Source: an uncultured Myxococcales bacterium (GTDB lineage: Bacteria > Myxococcota_A > UBA9042 > DTJE01). From it: a DNA stretch of 60,499 nt. The position numbers and the translations under genes were made by a program. Below, in pieces: positions 10,335-46,185 of this stretch; position 1 is the stretch's first letter, and the number at the start of each line of letters is the position of its first letter. The notes under the pieces are model-generated. The model was given only the letters and a program-made list of their open reading frames with translations. It did no database searches and was not told the origin of the DNA. Where the stretch lies: positions 1 to 60,499 of the forward strand of contig CAINDP010000200.1 in the NCBI GenBank assembly GCA_903847405.1. The letters are read 5' to 3'.

Positions 10335-11027
<693 letters not shown>

Positions 11028-11030
11028 TCG

Positions 11031-11945
11031 ATGGCCGGCAACGGTCCGAACGCCCTGCGGCAGGGGCTCCACCTCCTGGGCCAGGGATTCAAGGGCCTCA
11101 CGGTGTCGCCGGGCCAGACGGTGGCCTGCGTGCTGTCGCTGGCGGTGGCCGGGTGCCTCGTGGTCCTGTCCGCCTCCTTCGGTTCCCTGACCGTGGACGT
11201 GCTGGACCGGGCGGGCCGCAGCGCGAAGGTCCTGGTGTACCTGAAGGACGAGGTTCCGGCCGAGCGCGTCCAGGACCTGATGACGCGGGTGGGCGCCCGC
11301 AGCGACGTCGAGGCGGTCGAGTACCTGACCCGCGAGCAGGACCGGGCGCACAACGCCGACCTGCTGCCGCGGGACGTCATGGCGACGCTCCCCGCGGAGG
11401 CGGTCCCGGGCCAGCACGGCCTGGAGGTCACGTTCCGGGCAGGGGCCGGCGGGACGGCGGGAATCGGGGCGCTGGCCTCGTTCCTGAAGGCACTGGAGGG
11501 CGTGGACGTGGTGGCCGAACCGCCGGTCGGATCGGGACGCCTGCGCGCCCTGGCCGCCGCGGTGGGCTTCCTGCGGACCGTGCTGATGATGCTGGCGGCC
11601 CTGCTGCTGGTGGGCACGCTGTTCTTCGTGGTCGGGACCCTGACGCGGACGATGGAGCGCCGGAAGGACGAAATGAACATCCTGCGCCTGCTGGGGGCGA
11701 CGGACGCCTTCGTCCGGGCGCCCATCGTCATCCAGGGCGTCCTGCAGGGCGTCGCCGGCCTGGCCCTGGGCTCCATCGCCGCGATCCTGGTGTCCGGGGC
11801 GGTCAACGCGTGGCTTTCGGTGGAATTCGACGTCGCGGTGCGCCTGCCGGCCTGGCCGGGACGCGTGCTGCCCCTGGCCGTGGCCGGCGGGCTCCTGCTG
11901 GGGGTCGCCGGCGCCTTCATCGCCACGGCACGGCGGGAGGCGTAG
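11031..11945 (+). CDS. ftsX: Cell division protein FtsX
   Basis: A 304-residue membrane partner of FtsE. A first transmembrane helix (about 27-50) is followed by an extracytoplasmic domain of about 130 residues with the family pattern VYLKDEVPAERVQDL, then three more helices in the last third separated by the conserved MERRKDEMNILRLLGAT loop that contacts FtsE. This is the standard four-helix FtsX topology. The extracytoplasmic domain is the part that binds the EnvC-type activator, whose gene begins three bases after the ftsX stop, so the complex is encoded contiguously. Confidence 0.95.
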   Translation: MAGNGPNALRQGLHLLGQGFKGLTVSPGQTVACVLSLAVAGCLVVLSASFGSLTVDVLDRAGRSAKVLVYLKDEVPAERVQDLMTRVGARSDVEAVEYLTREQDRAHNADLLPRDVMATLPAEAVPGQHGLEVTFRAGAGGTAGIGALASFLKALEGVDVVAEPPVGSGRLRALAAAVGFLRTVLMMLAALLLVGTLFFVVGTLTRTMERRKDEMNILRLLGATDAFVRAPIVIQGVLQGVAGLALGSIAAILVSGAVNAWLSVEFDVAVRLPAWPGRVLPLAVAGGLLLGVAGAFIATARREA

Positions 11946-11948
11946 GGC

Positions 11949-13085
11949 GTGAGGCGTGCGAATCGGATGCGCCCCGGGCGGCTGCCGGCCTTCGCAATCG
12001 CGTCCCTCTGGATTCTCGGCACCGTCCCGTCGATCGCCGCCCAGCCCCCCTCCCCCCTTCCCTCCGGTCCGCGCAGCCTGCCGGACCTGCTGAAGGCGGA
12101 GGCGTCCATCCTGGACACGCTGGACACCGCCGTGTTCGAGGCCCGTCGGGCCGAGTCCCAGATGAAGGCCGCGGAAACCGACCGGAAGGCCGCGGAAGCA
12201 CGCATGGCGACGGCAGAATCCGCCCTGCGGTCGGCCCGGGGGCGGGAAGGCGAGGCACGGGCCCGGCTGCAGGCCACCCTGCGCCTGCACCGGACGGCCG
12301 AGCCCTTCGGATCGGCCGTGGTCCAGGTTCTGCTGGGTGACGACGAGGATCTGTCCCGGCGGGCGGCGCTGCTGGCCCGACTGTCGGCGCGGCAGGCCGC
12401 CGAGGTCGCCGCGATCACCGAGTCCGTGGCCGTCGCCGAATCCGCCGAGTTCCGGGCGGGCATCGAGCGGGCGGCAGCCTGGGCCCTGGCGCGGACCGGC
12501 CGGGACGCCCGGACGCGCCTGGACGAGGAAGTCGGCCTGCACCGGGCCCTCCTGGACGCCCTGGAACGGGACCGGTCCCTGCAGACCCGGCGCGCCGCCG
12601 AAATGACGGAGTCCGTTCGGCAGTTGGCGCGGACGATCGCCGAGCGACGCAGCGACCGGCCGGGGCCCGTCGATTTCGATCGCCTGAAGGGCCGCGTGAA
12701 GGTTCCCCTGGCCGGCGCCCGGGTCGCCGTCGCGTTCGGCGACGTGATCCACCCCGTGTTCAAGACCCGGACGCCCCACCCCGGCCTGACGATGGAGTTC
12801 CCCGGCGCCCAGTCCCGCAACATCCGGGTCGCGGCGTTCGGCCGTGTTGCCTGGGTCGGGCGGATGCGGGGCCTGGGGTCCACGGTCCTGGTCGACCACG
12901 CCTCGGGCTGGTTTTCGGTCTATGGCGGGCTGTCCGAGGTGAACCTGCCGGCAGGGACGGTCGTCCGGGAAGGCGACATCCTGGGCCGGGTGGCGCCGGG
13001 GCCCGGCGAGGCGGCGGTCCGCCTGTACTTCGAATTGCGCAAGGATGCCGAGGCGGTGGATCCGCGGCCCTACCTGGCGAAGTGA
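11949..13085 (+). CDS. envC: EnvC-like murein hydrolase activator with degenerate LytM domain
   Basis: A 378-residue periplasmic protein: signal peptide (about 1-31), a long Ala/Arg/Glu-rich coiled coil (about 40-225) and a C-terminal LytM/M23 fold. The C-terminal pattern VRLYFELRKDAEAVDPRPYL matches EnvC. The zinc ligands of active M23 peptidases are lost: HxGxD reads HPGLTM and the final HxH reads LYFE. Such degenerate LytM proteins activate amidases rather than cut murein themselves. The GTG start at 11949 follows ftsX by three bases. The FtsEX-EnvC pairing strongly supports a role in activating cell-separation amidases; the two amidases encoded in this window are candidate clients, by inference. 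Confidence 0.87.
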   Translation: MRRANRMRPGRLPAFAIASLWILGTVPSIAAQPPSPLPSGPRSLPDLLKAEASILDTLDTAVFEARRAESQMKAAETDRKAAEARMATAESALRSARGREGEARARLQATLRLHRTAEPFGSAVVQVLLGDDEDLSRRAALLARLSARQAAEVAAITESVAVAESAEFRAGIERAAAWALARTGRDARTRLDEEVGLHRALLDALERDRSLQTRRAAEMTESVRQLARTIAERRSDRPGPVDFDRLKGRVKVPLAGARVAVAFGDVIHPVFKTRTPHPGLTMEFPGAQSRNIRVAAFGRVAWVGRMRGLGSTVLVDHASGWFSVYGGLSEVNLPAGTVVREGDILGRVAPGPGEAAVRLYFELRKDAEAVDPRPYLAK

Positions 13086-13951
13086 GGGTCGGCGTGGACC
13101 GCAGCGGCGCACTGGCGATCTGCGTGATCCTGGCCGCCGGATGCGCCACCGCGCCCGGGACCCGGACGATCCTGGACATCGAGGGCGCCGCCCCCCGGCC
13201 TCCCCAGGGCGAAGGCGCGTTCCCGACACCGACCCCGGACCGCCCCTGGGTCGCCATCGTCATCGACGACCTGGGCGACTCCCCGTCGGAACTCCGGCCG
13301 TTCCTGGACGTGCCCCTGCCCCTGTCCTTCGCGGTCCTGCCCACCGCGGCCCAGGCGCGGCAGGTCGCCCGCGGACTGGCGGACCTGGGCCGGGACGTCC
13401 TGGCCCACATTCCCATGGAACCCGCCGAACCGGGATTCGTCCTGCCCCGCGGAACGCTCCTCACGTCGATGGATCCGGCCGCGATCCGCACCGCCTCGGA
13501 CCTGGCCCTGTCCCGCGTCCCCGGAGCGATCGGGGCCAACAACCACATGGGCTCCGCGTTCACCCGGTCCGCGGACGCCCTGCGCCCCTTCGTCGGGGCG
13601 TTGAAGGACCGGGGCCTGTTCTTCCTGGACAGCCGGACCGACCCGGCCACCGTCGCGGAGGACGTCGCGACGGCGGCCGGCGTGCCGGCCATCCGACGCG
13701 CGGTGTTCCTGGACAACGTGGACACCCCCGCGGCCATCGACGCCATGCTGGTCGCCCTGGAAACGATCGCCCTCACCCGGGGCTGCGCCGTCGCGATCGG
13801 CCATGGCCGCCCCGGGACCGCTGTTGCGCTGAAGCGCTACGCGACGAACCCCACCCGTGCCGTCGAGGTCGTGCCGGTATCCAGGCTGGTCGGTCGGGCG
13901 TGTGCGACGGGAGCGGTATTGCCCGGTGCAACGGCACCGGAGGAGCGGTAG
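13082..13951 (+). CDS. yibQ: YibQ-type divergent polysaccharide deacetylase family lipoprotein
   Basis: A 289-residue protein with a lipoprotein signal (LAAGC, Cys near residue 22) and a domain of the divergent polysaccharide deacetylase family: AIVIDDLGDSPSE near 58-70, HIPMEP near 104-109, NNHMGS near 152-157 and a late GHGRP motif. These are the metal-site motifs of the YibQ family. The GTG start overlaps the envC stop as GTGA. A yibQ gene directly after envC is a well-known arrangement in proteobacteria, which supports membership of the murein-remodelling operon. Substrate and activity are not established for the family. Confidence 0.86.
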   Translation: MRVGVDRSGALAICVILAAGCATAPGTRTILDIEGAAPRPPQGEGAFPTPTPDRPWVAIVIDDLGDSPSELRPFLDVPLPLSFAVLPTAAQARQVARGLADLGRDVLAHIPMEPAEPGFVLPRGTLLTSMDPAAIRTASDLALSRVPGAIGANNHMGSAFTRSADALRPFVGALKDRGLFFLDSRTDPATVAEDVATAAGVPAIRRAVFLDNVDTPAAIDAMLVALETIALTRGCAVAIGHGRPGTAVALKRYATNPTRAVEVVPVSRLVGRACATGAVLPGATAPEER

Positions 13952-38923: not shown

Positions 38924-40627
38924 TCAGAACACCTTCAGGTCCTTCACCTTCCCCATTCCGTCCTCCTTCTTCGGCGTCGGCGCGGGTGCCGGCGGCGCGC
39001 CCGGGGTCGGTGCGGAGGGGACGGCCGGGGCGGGGGCCACGCCCGGAGGCAGGGGCTTCCCGACGCCCGACGACAGGGCCATCTTCTTCAGCGACGTGGA
39101 CAGGGCGCCGTCCCGATCCGGGATGGCCTCGACCGTCGCGTCCCGATAGCCGCCCTTCCGGAAGGTGAACGTTTCCGCCGCCACGCCGTATGGGACGTCC
39201 ACGGTCAGCGGCGTGTTGCCCAGGGTCCGGCCCCGCTGGACCACCTCGGCGCCGTCGGGGTCCGAACTGAAGCGCATGGACACCGTGGACGGTCGCGACG
39301 GCACGGCCGCCGGGGGGACCGCCGACACCGCCGTCGCCACCGGTGCGGCCACCGGCAAGGGCGCGTCGGTCGCCGGTCCGAGGATGCCCGTCGCCCACAG
39401 GCTGATCCCGAGGCCCGAGAACATCACCAGCAGCACCGCGGCGACCCAGGCCCCCTTGCGGCGGCGTGTCGCGGCCACCGGGACGCCGGCGACGGTCGCG
39501 GCCTCCAGCGGGGACCGCGGAACCGGGGTCGGCCGGGGCCCCTGGACGTACACGACGCGCTCGAACCGCCCCAGCAGCTTCGCCTCGACCTCGTTGATGG
39601 CGGCCACGAGGTCCGAGGCGTGGTGGAATCGCATCTCGGGCGATTTTTCCAGGCACTTCATGACCAGGGCCTCGACCTCCTCCGGCACCTCGATGTCCGG
39701 CCGGACCTCGGCCAGCGGCCTGGGCTGCTCCTGGACGTGCTGGATCAGGATGGCCAGCGGGTTTTCCGCGTCGAAGGGCGCGTTGCCGACCAGCATTTCG
39801 TAGGCGATGACGCCCAGGGCATAGAGGTCCGCCCGGTGGTCCACCGCCATCGATCGGCACTGCTCGGGCGCCATGTAACGGGGCGTGCCGAAGATCGTGC
39901 CGGCCTGCGTCACGGTGCCCTGGCGCTTGTCGGCCTCCCGCAGCTTGGCCACGCCGAAGTCCAGCACCTTCACGAAGTCCGGATCGTCGCCCACCTTGGT
40001 CAGGTATACGTTGTCGGGCTTGAGGTCCCGGTGGACGATGCCCTTCTCGTGGGCCTCGACCAGCGACGCGGCGATCTGCTTGAGGACGTGCATGGTGCGC
40101 CGGGCCGAAAACGTCTGGTCCCGCCGCAGGGCCTCCTCGAGGCTGCTGCCTTCCAGGAATTCCATGGCGAAGTAGAGGGTCGCGTCCTCGGCCTGGCCGA
40201 AGTCGAAGATTCGGATGGTGTTCGGATGGTTCAGGCGGCTGACCGCCAGCGCCTCGATCTTGAAGCGCTTGACGACCTTCTCGTCGCCGGCCAGTTCCCG
40301 CAGCAGCATCTTGACCGCGACGGTGCGGTCGATGCCGATCTGCCGGGCCCGGTAGACGATGCCCATCCCGCCGGCGCCGATGCGCGACAGGATTTCGAAC
40401 CGGCCGCTGATCGTGCGTCCCAGCATCGGATCGACGCCGGACGAAGGCGACGGCCCCGTTTCGGTCGCCGCGACGGCGGCCTCCACCCGGGCCCGGGTTT
40501 CCAGGTGATCCAGGGCCGTGGCCCGCTGGTCCGAGGGCACGTCGTGGGCCGGTTCCGGGCGGGTGGGAGATTCGGGCCGCTGGCCCTCCCCTTCCACGTC
40601 CCACCCCAGCGTCCGATCGTCCGCCAC
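38924..40627 (-). CDS. Hanks-type Ser/Thr kinase with C-terminal PEGA domain
   Basis: A 567-residue kinase. After an acidic N-terminal tail come the G-loop GAGGMG (84-89), Lys106, HRDLKPDN (Asp201), DFG (223-225) and MAPEQ. A single transmembrane helix (about 370-390) leads to an extracytoplasmic segment with a PEGA domain (about 425-490, SSDPDGAEVVQRGRTLGNTPL) and a Pro/Ala-rich tail. PEGA domains are thought to bind surface components. The start is set at GTG 40627: an ATG at 40696 would lie upstream of the extended -10 element at 40657-40665. The tail ends GKVKDLKVF. Confidence 0.88.
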   Translation of the reverse strand: MADDRTLGWDVEGEGQRPESPTRPEPAHDVPSDQRATALDHLETRARVEAAVAATETGPSPSSGVDPMLGRTISGRFEILSRIGAGGMGIVYRARQIGIDRTVAVKMLLRELAGDEKVVKRFKIEALAVSRLNHPNTIRIFDFGQAEDATLYFAMEFLEGSSLEEALRRDQTFSARRTMHVLKQIAASLVEAHEKGIVHRDLKPDNVYLTKVGDDPDFVKVLDFGVAKLREADKRQGTVTQAGTIFGTPRYMAPEQCRSMAVDHRADLYALGVIAYEMLVGNAPFDAENPLAILIQHVQEQPRPLAEVRPDIEVPEEVEALVMKCLEKSPEMRFHHASDLVAAINEVEAKLLGRFERVVYVQGPRPTPVPRSPLEAATVAGVPVAATRRRKGAWVAAVLLVMFSGLGISLWATGILGPATDAPLPVAAPVATAVSAVPPAAVPSRPSTVSMRFSSDPDGAEVVQRGRTLGNTPLTVDVPYGVAAETFTFRKGGYRDATVEAIPDRDGALSTSLKKMALSSGVGKPLPPGVAPAPAVPSAPTPGAPPAPAPTPKKEDGMGKVKDLKVF

Positions 40628-40656
40628 GTGTCCAACCCGGTGCGCAACCGGTCGGG

Positions 40657-40665
40657 AATGTACCA
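40657..40665 (-). promoter_or_regulatory. Extended -10 element of PEGA-kinase gene
   Basis: On the minus strand TGGTACATT fits TGnTAnAnT. The expected start near 40650 falls between the ATG at 40696 and the GTG at 40627, favouring the GTG. Confidence 0.4.
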
Positions 40666-40729
40666 CAATCTCAGAAACCGCGCGGCATTGCGGCATTCCG
40701 GACCTTCGGTCCCGGCGTCACGGAGGCCT

Positions 40730-40790: not shown

Positions 40791-42953
40791 ATGAACCAAG
40801 CCCCCCTGGCTCGCTCGATTGCCCTGTCTGTCGCCGTGGCCTTCGCGGGCATGGTGACGGCCGCCGTCGCGACCGCGACGCCGCTGTCGATCCCCCGCAT
40901 GGCACCGGGACTTTCGTTCGTCACCCCCCCCGTCCGCGTCCTCCTGGAGTGCCCGGGCACCCGTCCGTCGCAGCCGTGGCTGGCCACCCTGGGCGGCGCC
41001 CTGGACGATCGGGGTTTCCTTCTGACCGATCGCGCAGGACCGACGACCGAGGGCCTGGTCGCGGTGGTCCGATGCGTGGAGCGTCCCCTGGACGTGGCGC
41101 CTGCCACCCCCCCGGACGCCGCGAAGGCCTCGAAGGTCCTGCCGGCTCCGACCACCCCCGCACCGGCGCCGTCCCCCCCGGTCGTCGAGGTGGTTGCCCC
41201 CCTGTCCGAAAAGGGCGCCCTGGCCGTGGCGGACCGGATCGCCGCCCTGGCGGCCGGGAAGGCCGGATTCCCCCGGCCGGTCCGCGTCCTGTTCTTCGTC
41301 GAGGCGTCCACGGATTCGGGTCGGGAACTGCTGGTCCAGTCCTCGTGGGTTGCGACCTATGCGCGCCTCGCGGCCGATTTCGCGGATCTTGCAGGCATCG
41401 ACCGCCTGCCGGACGGGTGGCTGGATTCGTATGACGCCGTGATCCTCGCGGCGGATCGCCTCCCCCGGGCAGGGCTCGCCCGCCTGCCGGGCGCGCTGCG
41501 GCGCTACGTGGAACGCGGCGGCGCCCTGGCGGCCGTGGGCGGCATCGAGGACGAGGAACTGTTCCCGCTGTTCGGCATCGAAAAGATGGTCGACGAAGCG
41601 AGGGTCGAAGCCTATGCCTGCGAACCGACCTTCCTGGCCGGCTCCGCGGGCCTGGATCCGGTCCTGAGCCCCGACGGCGTGGACACCGTGCCGCGCTACC
41701 GCCTGGCGAAAAACGTCCGCGTCCTGTGCCGCGGCGGCGCGGGCACTGCCCGGGATGTGCCCCTGGCCTTCACGGCGCGCCGCGGCAAGGGGGCCGTCAT
41801 CGCCTGGGCCGGCGCCCGCCTGGCCGACAAGTCCTCCCGGGGCCTCATCCTCCTGTCGATCCTGGAGGTTTCGCCCATCCCCGCGGCGGTCCTGGGCGCC
41901 CTGGTCTTCTACGCCGACGACTGTCCGCTGCCCATGACCAACACGCGGCGCGCCCCGGCGGATCGGCTGTACGACCTCACGGATTCCGACTTCTACCGCA
42001 CGATGTGGTGGCCCCGGATGCGCGCCCTGTGGGAAAAGCACCTGGTGCGGCCCACGATGGGCTTCATCCTGACCTATGACGACCGGATGCCGGGCGACGC
42101 GCTTCCCGAGGGCTACGTCGAACCCGAGGGCGCGCCGTCGCTGGAACTGGCCCGGTCGATCCGCGACGCCGGCTACGAAATCGGGCTCCACGGCTACAAC
42201 CACCAGTCGCTCAGCGTGGGCCGGAACGAGTGGACCGTGGGCTGGGCCGGCCGCGCTCTGATGGAGGAAGCCCTCCGCCTGCTGCGCTCCGAGTTCCACC
42301 GGATCTTCGGTGCGGACGCCGAACCGCCGGTCTACATCGCCCCCAGCAACTTCATCCAGAAGATGGGCAAGGAGTCCCTGCGGGCGATCTTCCCGTCGAT
42401 CACCGGCGTCGCGTCGCAGTACCTGGACGAAGGGCCGATCCTGGGCCAGGAATTCGGGCCGGACCCGGACGTTCCCGGGCTGGTGGACCTCCCGCGCATC
42501 TCGTCCGAGCACTTCCTGGACGGCGGCAACAGCCAGGAAACGCTGGACGCCCTGGTCCTGCCCGGCATCTTCAGCCACTTCGTGCACCCCGATGACTTCT
42601 TCGACCCCGAGCGCTCGCGCAACGTGGATTTCGACCAGATGGTCCAGCGCCTGGACGACATGCTGACCATGGTCGATCAGGCCTACCCGTTCCTGAAGCG
42701 CATGACCGGTTCCGAACTGGCCCGGTACATCCCCGTTTGGCGGAAGGCCGGGCTGACGGTCCTGCGGAACTCGTCCGGCCTGCAACTGCGCGCGATCGAC
42801 CCGCCCGCGGATGGGCTGACCGTCCTGGTCCGCGCACCCCGCGGCACGACGGTCCGCAGCCAGGGACCGTGCGAGGAGGTCTTCCGGGCGAACACGGAGT
42901 CCCGGTACTACTACCGGGTGGGTAGCGAAGCATGCACGATCACGTGGCAATGA
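40791..42953 (+). CDS. DUF2194-like secreted polysaccharide deacetylase homologue
   Basis: A 720-residue exported protein with a signal peptide (about 1-30) and a Pro-rich linker near 115-135. The middle (about 150-370) resembles the flavodoxin-like or GATase-like region of DUF2194 proteins, with LFFVEASTDSGRELL, YDAVILAADRLP and RYVERGGALAAVGG. The C-terminal part is a carbohydrate esterase 4-type barrel: FYADDCP (Asp376/377), LTYDDRMP and the metal-binding HGYNH (His467, His471). It likely deacetylates an extracellular polysaccharide. ATG 40791 follows GTGGGA. It overlaps the TPR-barrel gene by 22 bases, so their functions are probably linked. Confidence 0.7.
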   Translation: MNQAPLARSIALSVAVAFAGMVTAAVATATPLSIPRMAPGLSFVTPPVRVLLECPGTRPSQPWLATLGGALDDRGFLLTDRAGPTTEGLVAVVRCVERPLDVAPATPPDAAKASKVLPAPTTPAPAPSPPVVEVVAPLSEKGALAVADRIAALAAGKAGFPRPVRVLFFVEASTDSGRELLVQSSWVATYARLAADFADLAGIDRLPDGWLDSYDAVILAADRLPRAGLARLPGALRRYVERGGALAAVGGIEDEELFPLFGIEKMVDEARVEAYACEPTFLAGSAGLDPVLSPDGVDTVPRYRLAKNVRVLCRGGAGTARDVPLAFTARRGKGAVIAWAGARLADKSSRGLILLSILEVSPIPAAVLGALVFYADDCPLPMTNTRRAPADRLYDLTDSDFYRTMWWPRMRALWEKHLVRPTMGFILTYDDRMPGDALPEGYVEPEGAPSLELARSIRDAGYEIGLHGYNHQSLSVGRNEWTVGWAGRALMEEALRLLRSEFHRIFGADAEPPVYIAPSNFIQKMGKESLRAIFPSITGVASQYLDEGPILGQEFGPDPDVPGLVDLPRISSEHFLDGGNSQETLDALVLPGIFSHFVHPDDFFDPERSRNVDFDQMVQRLDDMLTMVDQAYPFLKRMTGSELARYIPVWRKAGLTVLRNSSGLQLRAIDPPADGLTVLVRAPRGTTVRSQGPCEEVFRANTESRYYYRVGSEACTITWQ

Positions 42954-44884
42954 CGGCCCGGGCGGCCCTGGCCCTGGCGCTGGTCCTGCTGGTCGCCGGT
43001 CCCGGCCGCGCGGCTCCGCAGGAACCGGCGCCGACAATCGACGGGATGTCCACCGCTCCGCGTCCCGTGGCCCCCCGCCCCAGGCCGGTCCGCAAGGCGA
43101 CGCCCGTCGTGGCGGAAGCCTCGGAACCCGCCCTTCCCCCGGCCGCCCAGTCCATCACCCAGGCACGCACGCTGCGGGACGCCGGGCAGCCGGCCCAGGC
43201 CGAGGCGCTGCTGCGGCCGTACCTTGCGATCACGCCGGTGGACGCCGACATCCACGCCGAACTGGCCGAGGCCCTGTCGGACCAGTCCCGGGACGCCGAA
43301 GCCGTCGCCCAGTGGGAGGAAGTCGTGCGGGTCCGCCCCGAGGACGCCGCCGCGCGCCTGCGCCTGGCCGACCTCTACGTGGGCATGGACCAGGCGGATT
43401 CCGCCCTGGAGCACTACCAGGCGGTCCTCCAGAGGCGTCCGGACGATCCGGCGCTGCGCCGTCGCGTGGGCCTTCTGCTGATGGACATGGACCGGGGCGC
43501 CGAGGCGATCCCGCACCTGGAAGCCTACGCGGCGCTGGTCCCTGCCGACGACGAGGTCCAGCGGGCCCTGGAAAAGCTGTACACGTGGAACGACCGCCCC
43601 GACGACGCCCGCAGGGTCCTGGAAGGCCGCGTGCGGCTGCATCCGGACGACGTGGACGCGACCCGGGAACTGGCCGAGCGCTACGTGGACAAGGGCGACG
43701 AGGCGAAGGCCATGACGCTGTACGAGCGCGTGGTCAAGGCCCGACCCGACGACCTGGCGGCCCGCCGGGCCCTGGGCGAACTGTACGAATGGAACAACGC
43801 GCCGCGGAAGGCGCTGGAACAGTACGAAACCTGCCTGGCCGCACAGCCGTACGACGCCGAAATCCGCGCGCGGGCGCTGTCCCTGTCCACCGACCTGGGC
43901 CTCGGGCCCCGGGCCCGCGTGCACGGCTATCTTCTTCGGTCCAGCGACAGCCGCTTCCGGGACCTGGCGCGGGAATCGGTCCTGGCGGACACGGGCTTCG
44001 GCTCGTGGGCGGGTGTCCAGTACACCTTCTTCCAGGAAAAGGGCCGTCTGGAGTTCCATGGCGTGGGCCCCCGGGCGGCCTACGAGGCGAAGGACTGGGC
44101 GACGGTGGGAGCCTGGTACCAGTTCCGGCACCTCAGCGGGCCGACCAGCGACGCCGACACCACCCGGCGCACCGCGATGGGGCACGCATTCGGCGTCTTC
44201 GCGAACCTGGCCCTGCCCAGGGAAGTCCAGTTGTCGATCGGGGGTTCCTTCGCCCACTACGACACGGGATTCGATTCGGGGAACGGCTACCTGACCCTGT
44301 CCCGCGATTTCGGGCCGCTGGCGGTGACCTTCCAGGCCGAGCGCGCCGACCTGATGACCTCGGTCGGCGACGTCCGCAGCAAGGCCGTCGCGAACACGTT
44401 CACGCTGGGTTTCGACTCCGAGCCGGTGACGCGCCTGCTGCTGCACGCCTCGGGCAGTTTCGGCATCTACTCGGACTGGAACCAGCGCCTGGCCTCGTCC
44501 CTGGGCGCCGGCGTCCGGGTGCTAGACCTGCCGCGAATCGAGTTGTGGTACGAGTATGACTACGAGCACTTCCGGTATCCGTCCGCGAAGTACCCGCGCG
44601 TCACCTACTTCGCGCCCGACAGCTACCACATGCACGGACCGCTGGCCACGCTGACGCACCCGGTCGCGACCTGGTTCGCCTATGGCCTCAGCCTGCACCT
44701 GTGGCACGTCTATGGGACGGGGGACAACGCCCTGATGCTGCAGTACGGCGCCAACGTCACGTTCCGCCCGGGGCTGCACCACATGATCCAGGCGTCCTAC
44801 CAGCGGGGCGACGAGGTCTGGGGTTCGGTCGCGGCGCGCTACCAGGACAACCTGCTGCTGTTCACCTACGCCTACGAATTCTGA
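42932..44884 (+). CDS. TPR protein with C-terminal outer-membrane barrel
   Basis: A 650-residue exported protein: signal peptide (about 1-28), Pro-rich spacer, then about eight TPR helices-pairs between 70 and 310 (for example AEALLRPYLAITPVDADIHAELAEALSDQ), and about 300 residues of alternating beta strands ending in a C-terminal Phe (FTYAYEF). The TPR-plus-porin plan matches secretins of synthase-dependent exopolysaccharide systems such as PgaA and PelB/AlgK-AlgE. No polysaccharide synthase lies in the window. Coupled to the upstream deacetylase, it may modify and export a surface glycan. The last 13 bases overlap the convergent DUF4395 gene. Confidence 0.75.
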   Translation: MHDHVAMTARAALALALVLLVAGPGRAAPQEPAPTIDGMSTAPRPVAPRPRPVRKATPVVAEASEPALPPAAQSITQARTLRDAGQPAQAEALLRPYLAITPVDADIHAELAEALSDQSRDAEAVAQWEEVVRVRPEDAAARLRLADLYVGMDQADSALEHYQAVLQRRPDDPALRRRVGLLLMDMDRGAEAIPHLEAYAALVPADDEVQRALEKLYTWNDRPDDARRVLEGRVRLHPDDVDATRELAERYVDKGDEAKAMTLYERVVKARPDDLAARRALGELYEWNNAPRKALEQYETCLAAQPYDAEIRARALSLSTDLGLGPRARVHGYLLRSSDSRFRDLARESVLADTGFGSWAGVQYTFFQEKGRLEFHGVGPRAAYEAKDWATVGAWYQFRHLSGPTSDADTTRRTAMGHAFGVFANLALPREVQLSIGGSFAHYDTGFDSGNGYLTLSRDFGPLAVTFQAERADLMTSVGDVRSKAVANTFTLGFDSEPVTRLLLHASGSFGIYSDWNQRLASSLGAGVRVLDLPRIELWYEYDYEHFRYPSAKYPRVTYFAPDSYHMHGPLATLTHPVATWFAYGLSLHLWHVYGTGDNALMLQYGANVTFRPGLHHMIQASYQRGDEVWGSVAARYQDNLLLFTYAYEF

Positions 44885-45384
44885 ACACGCGGGGACTGGC
44901 GGGGTTCGTGGACCGAAGCGGCGGGGCCGCAGGACACGCAGGCCGGAGCCCGCAGCAAGCCGAAGCGGACCAGCACCGCGTGGATGTGGCACCCGACGCA
45001 GACCCCCGCGAACGCCTCCAGCGACGCCAGGACGATCACCATTCCCGCCAGGGCGCGCCCCGCGAACTCCAGGTCCGGGACCAGGTGCAGGACCAGCGCG
45101 GACGTGAAGAACACAAACCCCAGGGTCGCGGCAAAGCGCTTCGGGGAGTACAGGATCGGACGCCCGGCGCCGCCGGGAAGCCGCCGGGCGATGTTCCGGG
45201 CGACCAGGACCAGCACGCTGTAGCGCGGCGACACCAGGGCGCGGATGGCGAAGTCCACCGCCAGGAACGCGATCGGCCACGCGGAGTGGGTGACCGGCGC
45301 CAGCAACCCCAGGATGACGACCTGCAGCGCCACCAGTCGCGGCACCCGCTCCGGAACTTCCATCGGGAAACGACGATTCGCCAT
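44872..45384 (-). CDS. DUF4395 membrane protein
   Basis: A 170-residue membrane protein with four hydrophobic helices (about 17-33, 37-52, 83-104, 112-132). The family mark is a Cys motif at the end of the last helix, here CVGCHIHAVLVRFGL; further Cys residues (ACVSCG) follow. DUF4395 proteins often accompany rhodanese or thioredoxin genes and may act in sulfur or redox handling; no such gene is adjacent. A palindrome at 45405-45432 between its start and promoter suggests repression by a TetR- or similar dimeric regulator. Confidence 0.8.
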   Translation of the reverse strand: MANRRFPMEVPERVPRLVALQVVILGLLAPVTHSAWPIAFLAVDFAIRALVSPRYSVLVLVARNIARRLPGGAGRPILYSPKRFAATLGFVFFTSALVLHLVPDLEFAGRALAGMVIVLASLEAFAGVCVGCHIHAVLVRFGLLRAPACVSCGPAASVHEPRQSPRVQNS

Positions 45385-45567: not shown

Positions 45568-46185
45568 ATGGCGCGCGGAAACGGGGGTCCGACGGACAGG
45601 CAGTTGAAGGTCCTGGACTTCATCCAGCGCCACTCCCGCACCACCGGCGCGCCGCCCACGGTCCGGGAAATCGCGTCGGCCCTGGGGTTCGCCTCGACCA
45701 ACGCGGTGGCCTGCCACGTCGACGCCCTGGAGCGTCACGGACTGTTGCAGCGGCGTCCCCATTCGTCCCGCGGCCTGCGCGCCAGCGAGGGCGCCCGGGG
45801 CGGCGTGCCGATCCTGGGCCGCATCGCCGCAGGCCAGCCCATCACGGCAGTTGAAAACCTGGAAGGCTACCTGAACGCCGACCCGTTCCTGGTGGGTTCG
45901 GCGGACGGCACCTTCGTCCTGCGGGTCCAGGGGGACAGCATGACCGGCGACGGCATCCTGCCCGGCGACTATCTGATCGTACACAGCCAACCGGTCGCGG
46001 AGCGGGGGCGAATCGTCGTGGCCATGGTGGACGACGAGGCGACCGTCAAGCACTGGCAGGCCGACGCGGACGCCGTGCGCCTGGTGGCGTCCAACCCGGC
46101 GTACCCGCCCATCGAAATCCGGCCCGGCGACGGGAAGAAGGTCGAGGTGCTGGGGGTCGTGACCGGCGTGTTCCGGAAGGTGTAG
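45568..46185 (+). CDS. lexA: SOS transcriptional repressor LexA
   Basis: A 205-residue repressor of DNA-damage genes. The N-terminal winged helix (TDRQLKVLDFIQ, GAPPTVREIASALGFASTNAVACHVDALERHG) binds the operator. The self-cleavage bond is Ala88-Gly89 (IAAGQP), with catalytic Ser124 (GDSM) and Lys161 (ATVKHW). After RecA-stimulated cleavage the repressor is inactivated. The ATG at 45568 follows GGAGG. Its own promoter contains an SOS box (45524-45535). It converges on the murein amidase gene 16 bp away; no recA or polymerase gene is linked. Confidence 0.97.
   Translation: MARGNGGPTDRQLKVLDFIQRHSRTTGAPPTVREIASALGFASTNAVACHVDALERHGLLQRRPHSSRGLRASEGARGGVPILGRIAAGQPITAVENLEGYLNADPFLVGSADGTFVLRVQGDSMTGDGILPGDYLIVHSQPVAERGRIVVAMVDDEATVKHWQADADAVRLVASNPAYPPIEIRPGDGKKVEVLGVVTGVFRKV

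Follow-up and report, generated by a model that had tools for sequence, protein, structure and literature searches.

What do a putative polysaccharide deacetylase and a putative outer-membrane porin do in a stretch of DNA in which no polysaccharide synthase was found? This question is raised by two overlapping genes in the window analysed here, a contig of 60,499 nucleotides (C200) from a myxobacterial metagenome-assembled genome, G000; all positions refer to the whole stretch. The first gene encodes a DUF2194 protein, the second a protein with tetratricopeptide repeats (TPR) and a predicted beta-barrel. Very probably, the pair constitutes the periplasmic-modification and outer-membrane-export half (PelA-deacetylase/PelB type) of a split Pel system, the synthase part of which is encoded on another contig, C34. 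The basis for this reading is the homology of the deacetylase, conservation of its active site, the coupling of the two genes and the presence of one barrel per genome, together with the co-distribution of the pair with PelG, the occurrence of a homologous barrel among the pel genes of relatives and an empty site in genomes devoid of pel. We infer, further, that the polymer is Pel, that the deacetylase contacts the barrel protein and that export takes place.

The putative deacetylase and barrel genes

Both reading frames of the pair agree with those given in a preliminary description of this DNA, as does the 22-bp overlap between them, with the stop of the DUF2194 gene at 42953 and the ATG of the barrel gene at 42932. 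The features of the pair are as follows:

40791-42953, + strand: putative polysaccharide de-N-acetylase of DUF2194/PelADA type (CE26-like), pair-type copy, 720 aa; matches to PF09960 and 9zau_A
41232-41900, + strand: segment of the DUF2194 protein aligned to the 9zau chain from residue 21 on (domain naming after PMC13254593; limits set by eye)
41916-41921, + strand: D376-D377, corresponding to catalytic base D262 and metal ligand D263 of PelADA; identical in 19/19 aligned proteins
42189-42203, + strand: H467-x3-H471, HxxxH metal motif, H350/H354 of PelADA; 19/19
42495-42497, + strand: R569, R458 of PelADA; 19/19
42585-42596, + strand: H599-P-D601-D602, corresponding to catalytic acid H488 and D490/D491 of PelADA; 19/19
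42932-42953, + strand: gene overlap of 22 bp, identical in 6/6 pair loci
42932-44884, + strand: TPR/outer-membrane-barrel protein, predicted, PelB-like, 650 aa; TPR matches, single copy in the genome, homologues within the pel clusters of family f8
43127-43891, + strand: TPR superhelix, residues 66-320; TPR matches, AlphaFold2 confidence (pLDDT) mostly about 90
43892-44881, + strand: predicted beta-barrel, residues 321-650, with YFAPxxY motif and C-terminal Phe; from residue alternation, alignments and hhalign, AlphaFold2 giving no resolved fold

The first protein matches PF09960 (DUF2194) with an E-value of 2e-65. Searched alone against PDB sequences, it retrieved 9zau_A (E 9.5e-44), and a profile of the family (19 rows, one of which, L047, is misframed) retrieved the same chain with E 5e-110, in an alignment covering the alpha/beta/alpha and esterase domains and the start of the C-terminal domain. 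Entry 9ZAU is PelADA of Bacillus cereus, the founder of CE26 and CBM114, for which deacetylation of alpha-1,4-linked N-acetylgalactosamine (GalNAc) was shown and which is required for Pel (PMC13254593); the term 'DUF' does not occur in the main text of that paper. All nine PelADA active-site residues that we checked are retained in the window protein, eight of them being identical throughout the 19 aligned proteins and the other, P518 (P405 of PelADA), kept in 18. The window protein is homologous to B. cereus PelADA and, judged by its sequence, is a predicted CE26-like de-N-acetylase. No GH114 match was found in it with Pfam; a GH114 match lies elsewhere, on C171. In Cetobacterium somerae, a DUF2194 gene is situated among GH114, GAF, pelF and pelG genes, and in a Fusobacterium study a DUF2194 gene is listed with pelF/pelG as jointly reduced during coculture (PMC9848294).

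In the second protein, TPR repeats exceed several Pfam cut-offs. Its C-terminal 330 residues show a two-residue hydrophobic alternation with a mean of 1.82 against 1.27 +/- 0.12 in shuffled sequences, none of 500 shuffles being as high; the TPR part, used as a control, scored 1.06 against 1.24 in its own shuffles. The C-terminal Phe is invariant in all nine aligned barrel sequences. Both properties are as expected for an outer-membrane barrel. The proposed PelB membership of the window barrel rests on architecture and synteny and not on sequence. Searching PDB sequences with the profile of the barrel gave a chance match only, and a scan of the genome collection with the barrel protein retrieved one relative only.

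The exact 22-bp overlap recurs in all six pair loci examined (the window, G001, G002, G005, G011 and G008). The ATG at 42932 is the only start common to the six, an alternative ATG at 42950 not being kept in all of them, and so both the barrel start and the coupling of the genes look real. Such an overlap is ordinary, since pelA and pelB overlap by 11-26 bp in three of the five proteobacterial pel loci fetched. Within the window the absence of a nearby synthase, as claimed earlier, holds true: a Pfam scan of 42 of the 47 called genes found no match to a glycosyltransferase family, and the other five genes all encode fewer than 135 aa.

A probable split Pel system and its distribution

The genome G000 encodes on contig C34, in this order, a BcsB-like protein, a DUF2194 protein, a PelD-like protein (GAF-GGDEF), a PelE-like protein (TPR), PelF (NF038011, E 1.1e-141) and PelG (PF16933, E 1.6e-126). 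PelF and PelG, expected together in the genome of any Pel system, are both present; the canonical single operon is not, with the pair on C200 and PelDEFG on C34. (One gene caller was used for high-GC loci, another for the rest.) The C34 cluster has a second DUF2194 gene and lacks the TPR-barrel. In family f1, the block DUF2194-PelD-E-F-G is present in all eight PelG-positive genomes, and BcsB precedes it in each of the six whose contig extends that far. The window barrel was found by tblastn in none of the eight f1 pel loci, and a profile search returned exactly one barrel per genome, the window copy being the sole one in G000.

In a tree of DUF2194 proteins, the pair type and the pel type (eight rows each) come out as one group apiece, both supported at 100/100, and a third is formed by the f8 proteins (98/99), which suggests that both f1 copies are old and have been retained side by side. 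The pair-type clade is present in 8/8 PelG-positive genomes of f1.

Across the 377 genomes of the phylum, DUF2194 exceeded the cut-off in 11 and PelG in 24, and all of the 11 are among the 24 (hypergeometric 5e-15, kinship ignored); eight more genomes with partial, sub-threshold DUF2194 matches were left uncounted. The barrel was found in the same 11 genomes by a profile search of 137 genomes. Nine of the 11 genomes supplied the nine sequences of this profile; the other two, G006 and G007, were found independently. In the remaining 13 PelG-positive genomes no DUF2194 exceeds the cut-off, and PelA is presumably of other types there; one f6 locus, for instance, starts with GH114 and two TPR proteins. 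Within f1, both loci are present in eight of 13 genomes and neither in five, one of which, G012, has a completeness of just 68%. A tree built from two housekeeping proteins gives four changes of the joint state when all 17 rows are taken, among them f8, three when only f1 and f2 are counted, and at least two if G012 and the long-branched G013 are omitted.

Two genomes that lack both loci, G004 and G010, have an empty site: the kinase and lexA genes that otherwise flank the pair lie next to each other, and the pair and the adjoining DUF4395 gene are missing. In G006 a barrel fragment lies beside lexA at the same site; adjacency of the pair is likely there but unproven, because contigs end within both genes. 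Altogether, adjacency was seen in six of the eight f1 genomes, is open in one (G006) and absent in one (G007). An unrelated porin together with a pair that is not conserved had been set beforehand as the refutation of the earlier reading; for conservation the outcome speaks against refutation, whereas the fold of the barrel is still a predicted one.

Family f8 has the same parts in another arrangement. Its pel cluster (G019, G023 and G026) comprises BcsB, a TPR-barrel, PelD, PelE, PelF and PelG, and all three barrels are homologous to that of the window (tblastn E 3e-27, 8e-16 and 1e-8). Located between BcsB and PelD, the f8 barrel occupies the slot that DUF2194 has in f1, and the f8 DUF2194 genes are on other contigs than the pel cluster. 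The same parts are thus spread over two loci in two ways. We also observed that the f8 DUF2194 gene adjoins a GH114 hydrolase gene in two of the three genomes (L037:5232-8649; L040:12-3580), an arrangement like a split PelA apart from the pel cluster. GH114 occurs in 47 of 137 genomes and hence does not track the pair.

The proposal of a two-gene export module for a distant synthase is well supported by the co-distribution with PelG, the synteny in f8 and the empty site. Its companion in the preliminary description, a new glycan-remodelling system, is not needed, as DUF2194 corresponds to the known PelADA (CE26) family, with a structure and an activity (PMC13254593); the earlier interpretation is therefore supported in part. 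In the mechanism that we envisage, the GT4 enzyme PelF (contig C34) would polymerise GalNAc and PelD/E/F/G would pass the chain across the inner membrane. In the second window protein the TPRs would serve to dock the deacetylase and to guide the chain, acetyl groups would be stripped by the CE26-type deacetylase, and the barrel would release the partly deacetylated chain. By analogy, the coupled pair fits the same work as PelA-PelB of Pseudomonas aeruginosa, where PelA and PelB interact and the TPR part of PelB speeds deacetylation by PelA (PMC12022489), and where PelB is a 16-stranded barrel (PMC12141448).

Weighing the Pel reading against its alternatives

Several points weigh against the assignment to a split Pel system. 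The AlphaFold2 models, from two-sequence alignments, are poor (mean pLDDT 52 and 34); those of both pair proteins are usable for the TPR part only, and the barrel is not shown by them. Profile comparisons (hhalign) with the barrels of PelB, BcsC and PgaA are weak (E 0.009-0.016, probability below 5%, 105-142 columns); the matches centre on the YFAPxxY stretch and none is significant alone. This test has little power, since PelB and PgaA, a known same-fold pair, score only 0.077 against each other, compared with 0.009 (probability 4.5%) for the window barrel and canonical PelB. Controls were worse: OmpF, FadL and LamB gave E-values of 0.19-0.42 over no more than 26 columns, and two soluble proteins 0.32 and 0.55. 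Furthermore, there is kinship between the f1 and f8 genomes, and if G012 and G013 are omitted, just one change of joint state is forced by the strongly supported branches of the tree. The pairing is not universal, since G007 has its barrel and its pair-type DUF2194 in the interior of two different contigs. No PelC was detected at E <0.02 in the eight PelG-positive f1 or the three f8 genomes (best profile match 0.0265, in G007); in G000 there was no match at E <= 1, although a strongly diverged PelC could escape such a search. Finally, the f1 pel cluster holds its own DUF2194, and the pair copy is not needed to fill a deacetylase gap.

Given the pel cluster copy, the enzyme of the pair might be either a spare or a second station. 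A reading that overlaps with the preferred one keeps the pair in a Pel system and regards its deacetylase as redundant, the barrel alone being of importance. We consider this rather doubtful. The second DUF2194 in the pel cluster of all eight PelG-positive f1 genomes favours it, as does the f8 barrel that resides in the pel operon with no adjacent DUF2194; however, the window copy keeps all nine checked active-site residues, eight of them identical in 19/19, and the pair-type clade is a single group (100/100) kept in 8/8 PelG-positive f1 genomes. The other side of this alternative, which we advance tentatively and hold to be somewhat more likely wrong than right, is a Pel machine of Gram-negative cells that deacetylates at two stations, with the CE26 enzyme of the pel cluster acting beside the inner-membrane synthase and another, translationally coupled to the pore, at the outer membrane; its pel cluster would include a BcsB-like protein, and PelC would be lacking. 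The two stations would then set different acetylation patterns before and during export.

It is very unlikely that the pair serves another polysaccharide, similar to poly-N-acetylglucosamine (PNAG), cellulose or hyaluronan, whose GT2 synthase is encoded in another part of the genome. G000 does have 15 GT2-type matches, the best being a 535-aa protein on C138, and a TPR-barrel with a deacetylase is the layout of PNAG systems too (pgaA, pgaB). The DUF2194 protein, however, matches PelADA in the PDB, and the f8 barrel is found among pel genes. The best GT2 protein, the one of the 15 that was tested, was dropped as partner synthase, as it does not follow the pair, being present in the pair-less G003, G009 and G012 and absent from the pair-bearing G001, G002 and G008. 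Least probable of all is an unrelated porin placed next to the deacetylase by chance: the failure of AlphaFold2 on the barrel, the lack of a significant profile match to known polysaccharide porins and the separated genes of G007 are outweighed by the 22-bp overlap in 6/6 loci, the strict co-distribution, the f8 homologue inside pel clusters and the poorer scores of OmpF, FadL and LamB than of PelB, BcsC and PgaA against the window barrel (0.19-0.42 vs 0.009-0.016).

Compared with described systems, the split Pel system favoured here is a known machine in altered form, with split loci, two CE26-type deacetylases, BcsB present and no PelC found. The window deacetylase shares the sequence family and the catalytic residues with B. 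cereus PelADA, which is Gram-positive, membrane-anchored and encoded inside pelDEADAFG (PMC13254593); the window copy, in contrast, is myxobacterial and coupled to an outer-membrane barrel outside the pel cluster, a second copy residing within the cluster. In Gram-positives, PelADA-type enzymes were modelled as docking to PelG (PMC13254593). Pseudomonas-type PelA-PelB (PDB 9cgy, 9h80; PMC12022489, PMC12141448) similarly consists of a deacetylase and a TPR-porin as neighbours, often overlapping. Canonical PelA (CE21), however, has a fused GH114 hydrolase and belongs to the operon, whereas the window deacetylase is CE26-like, without GH114 and unlinked; no close relation of the window barrel to canonical PelB can be recognised, and PelC was not found in the f1/f8 genomes. 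The PgaA/PgaB and BcsC systems of Escherichia coli have the TPR and barrel export layout, and bcsZ and bcsC overlap as well, by 19 bp, but these systems use GT2 synthases and no DUF2194, and the similarity of their barrels to that of the window is weak.

Relocated pel genes are known in kind, as rearrangements of pelA and pelB and fission of pelB are reported by Bundalovic-Torma et al. (PMC7112194). Among the papers that the literature searches listed, supplements excepted, we noticed no account of a CE26-porin pair detached in this way. Our findings suggest a likely role for DUF2194, an unnamed Pfam family, in Gram-negative bacteria, and indicate that Pel modification and export genes can sit apart from the synthase and yet share its gains and losses. 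Searches based on operons miss this export half. Whether PelADA-type enzymes can also act at the outer-membrane pore is a testable question.

Neighbouring genes and further observations

Three genes adjoin or flank the pair in the window:

38924-40696, - strand: Ser/Thr kinase with PEGA domain, divergent; left flank of the conserved insertion site, no membership of the system claimed
44872-45384, - strand: DUF4395 protein, convergent; adjoins the pair in G001 and G002 and is gone with it in G004 and G010
45568-46185, + strand: LexA-like repressor; right flank of the conserved site, no membership of the system claimed

For the PEGA kinase, which diverges from the pair, a control role is possible. 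The DUF4395 gene (44872-45384) convergently overlaps the end of the barrel gene by 13 bp.

On C34, the BcsB-like protein (L032:11978-14107; PF03170, E 6.9e-46) is an odd partner for PelDEFG; it precedes the pel genes in nine of the 11 f1/f8 pel loci, and in the other two the contig ends earlier. Upstream of it (L032:14356-16645) are encoded a MYXO-CTERM protein rich in Cys and a protein of 391 aa that has no Pfam match, which recur in three and four f1 pel loci, respectively. Elsewhere in the window (10335-13951), an FtsE/FtsX-like ABC pair, an M23 peptidase and a divergent polysaccharide deacetylase (PF04748) stand in a row, which is probably cell-wall related.

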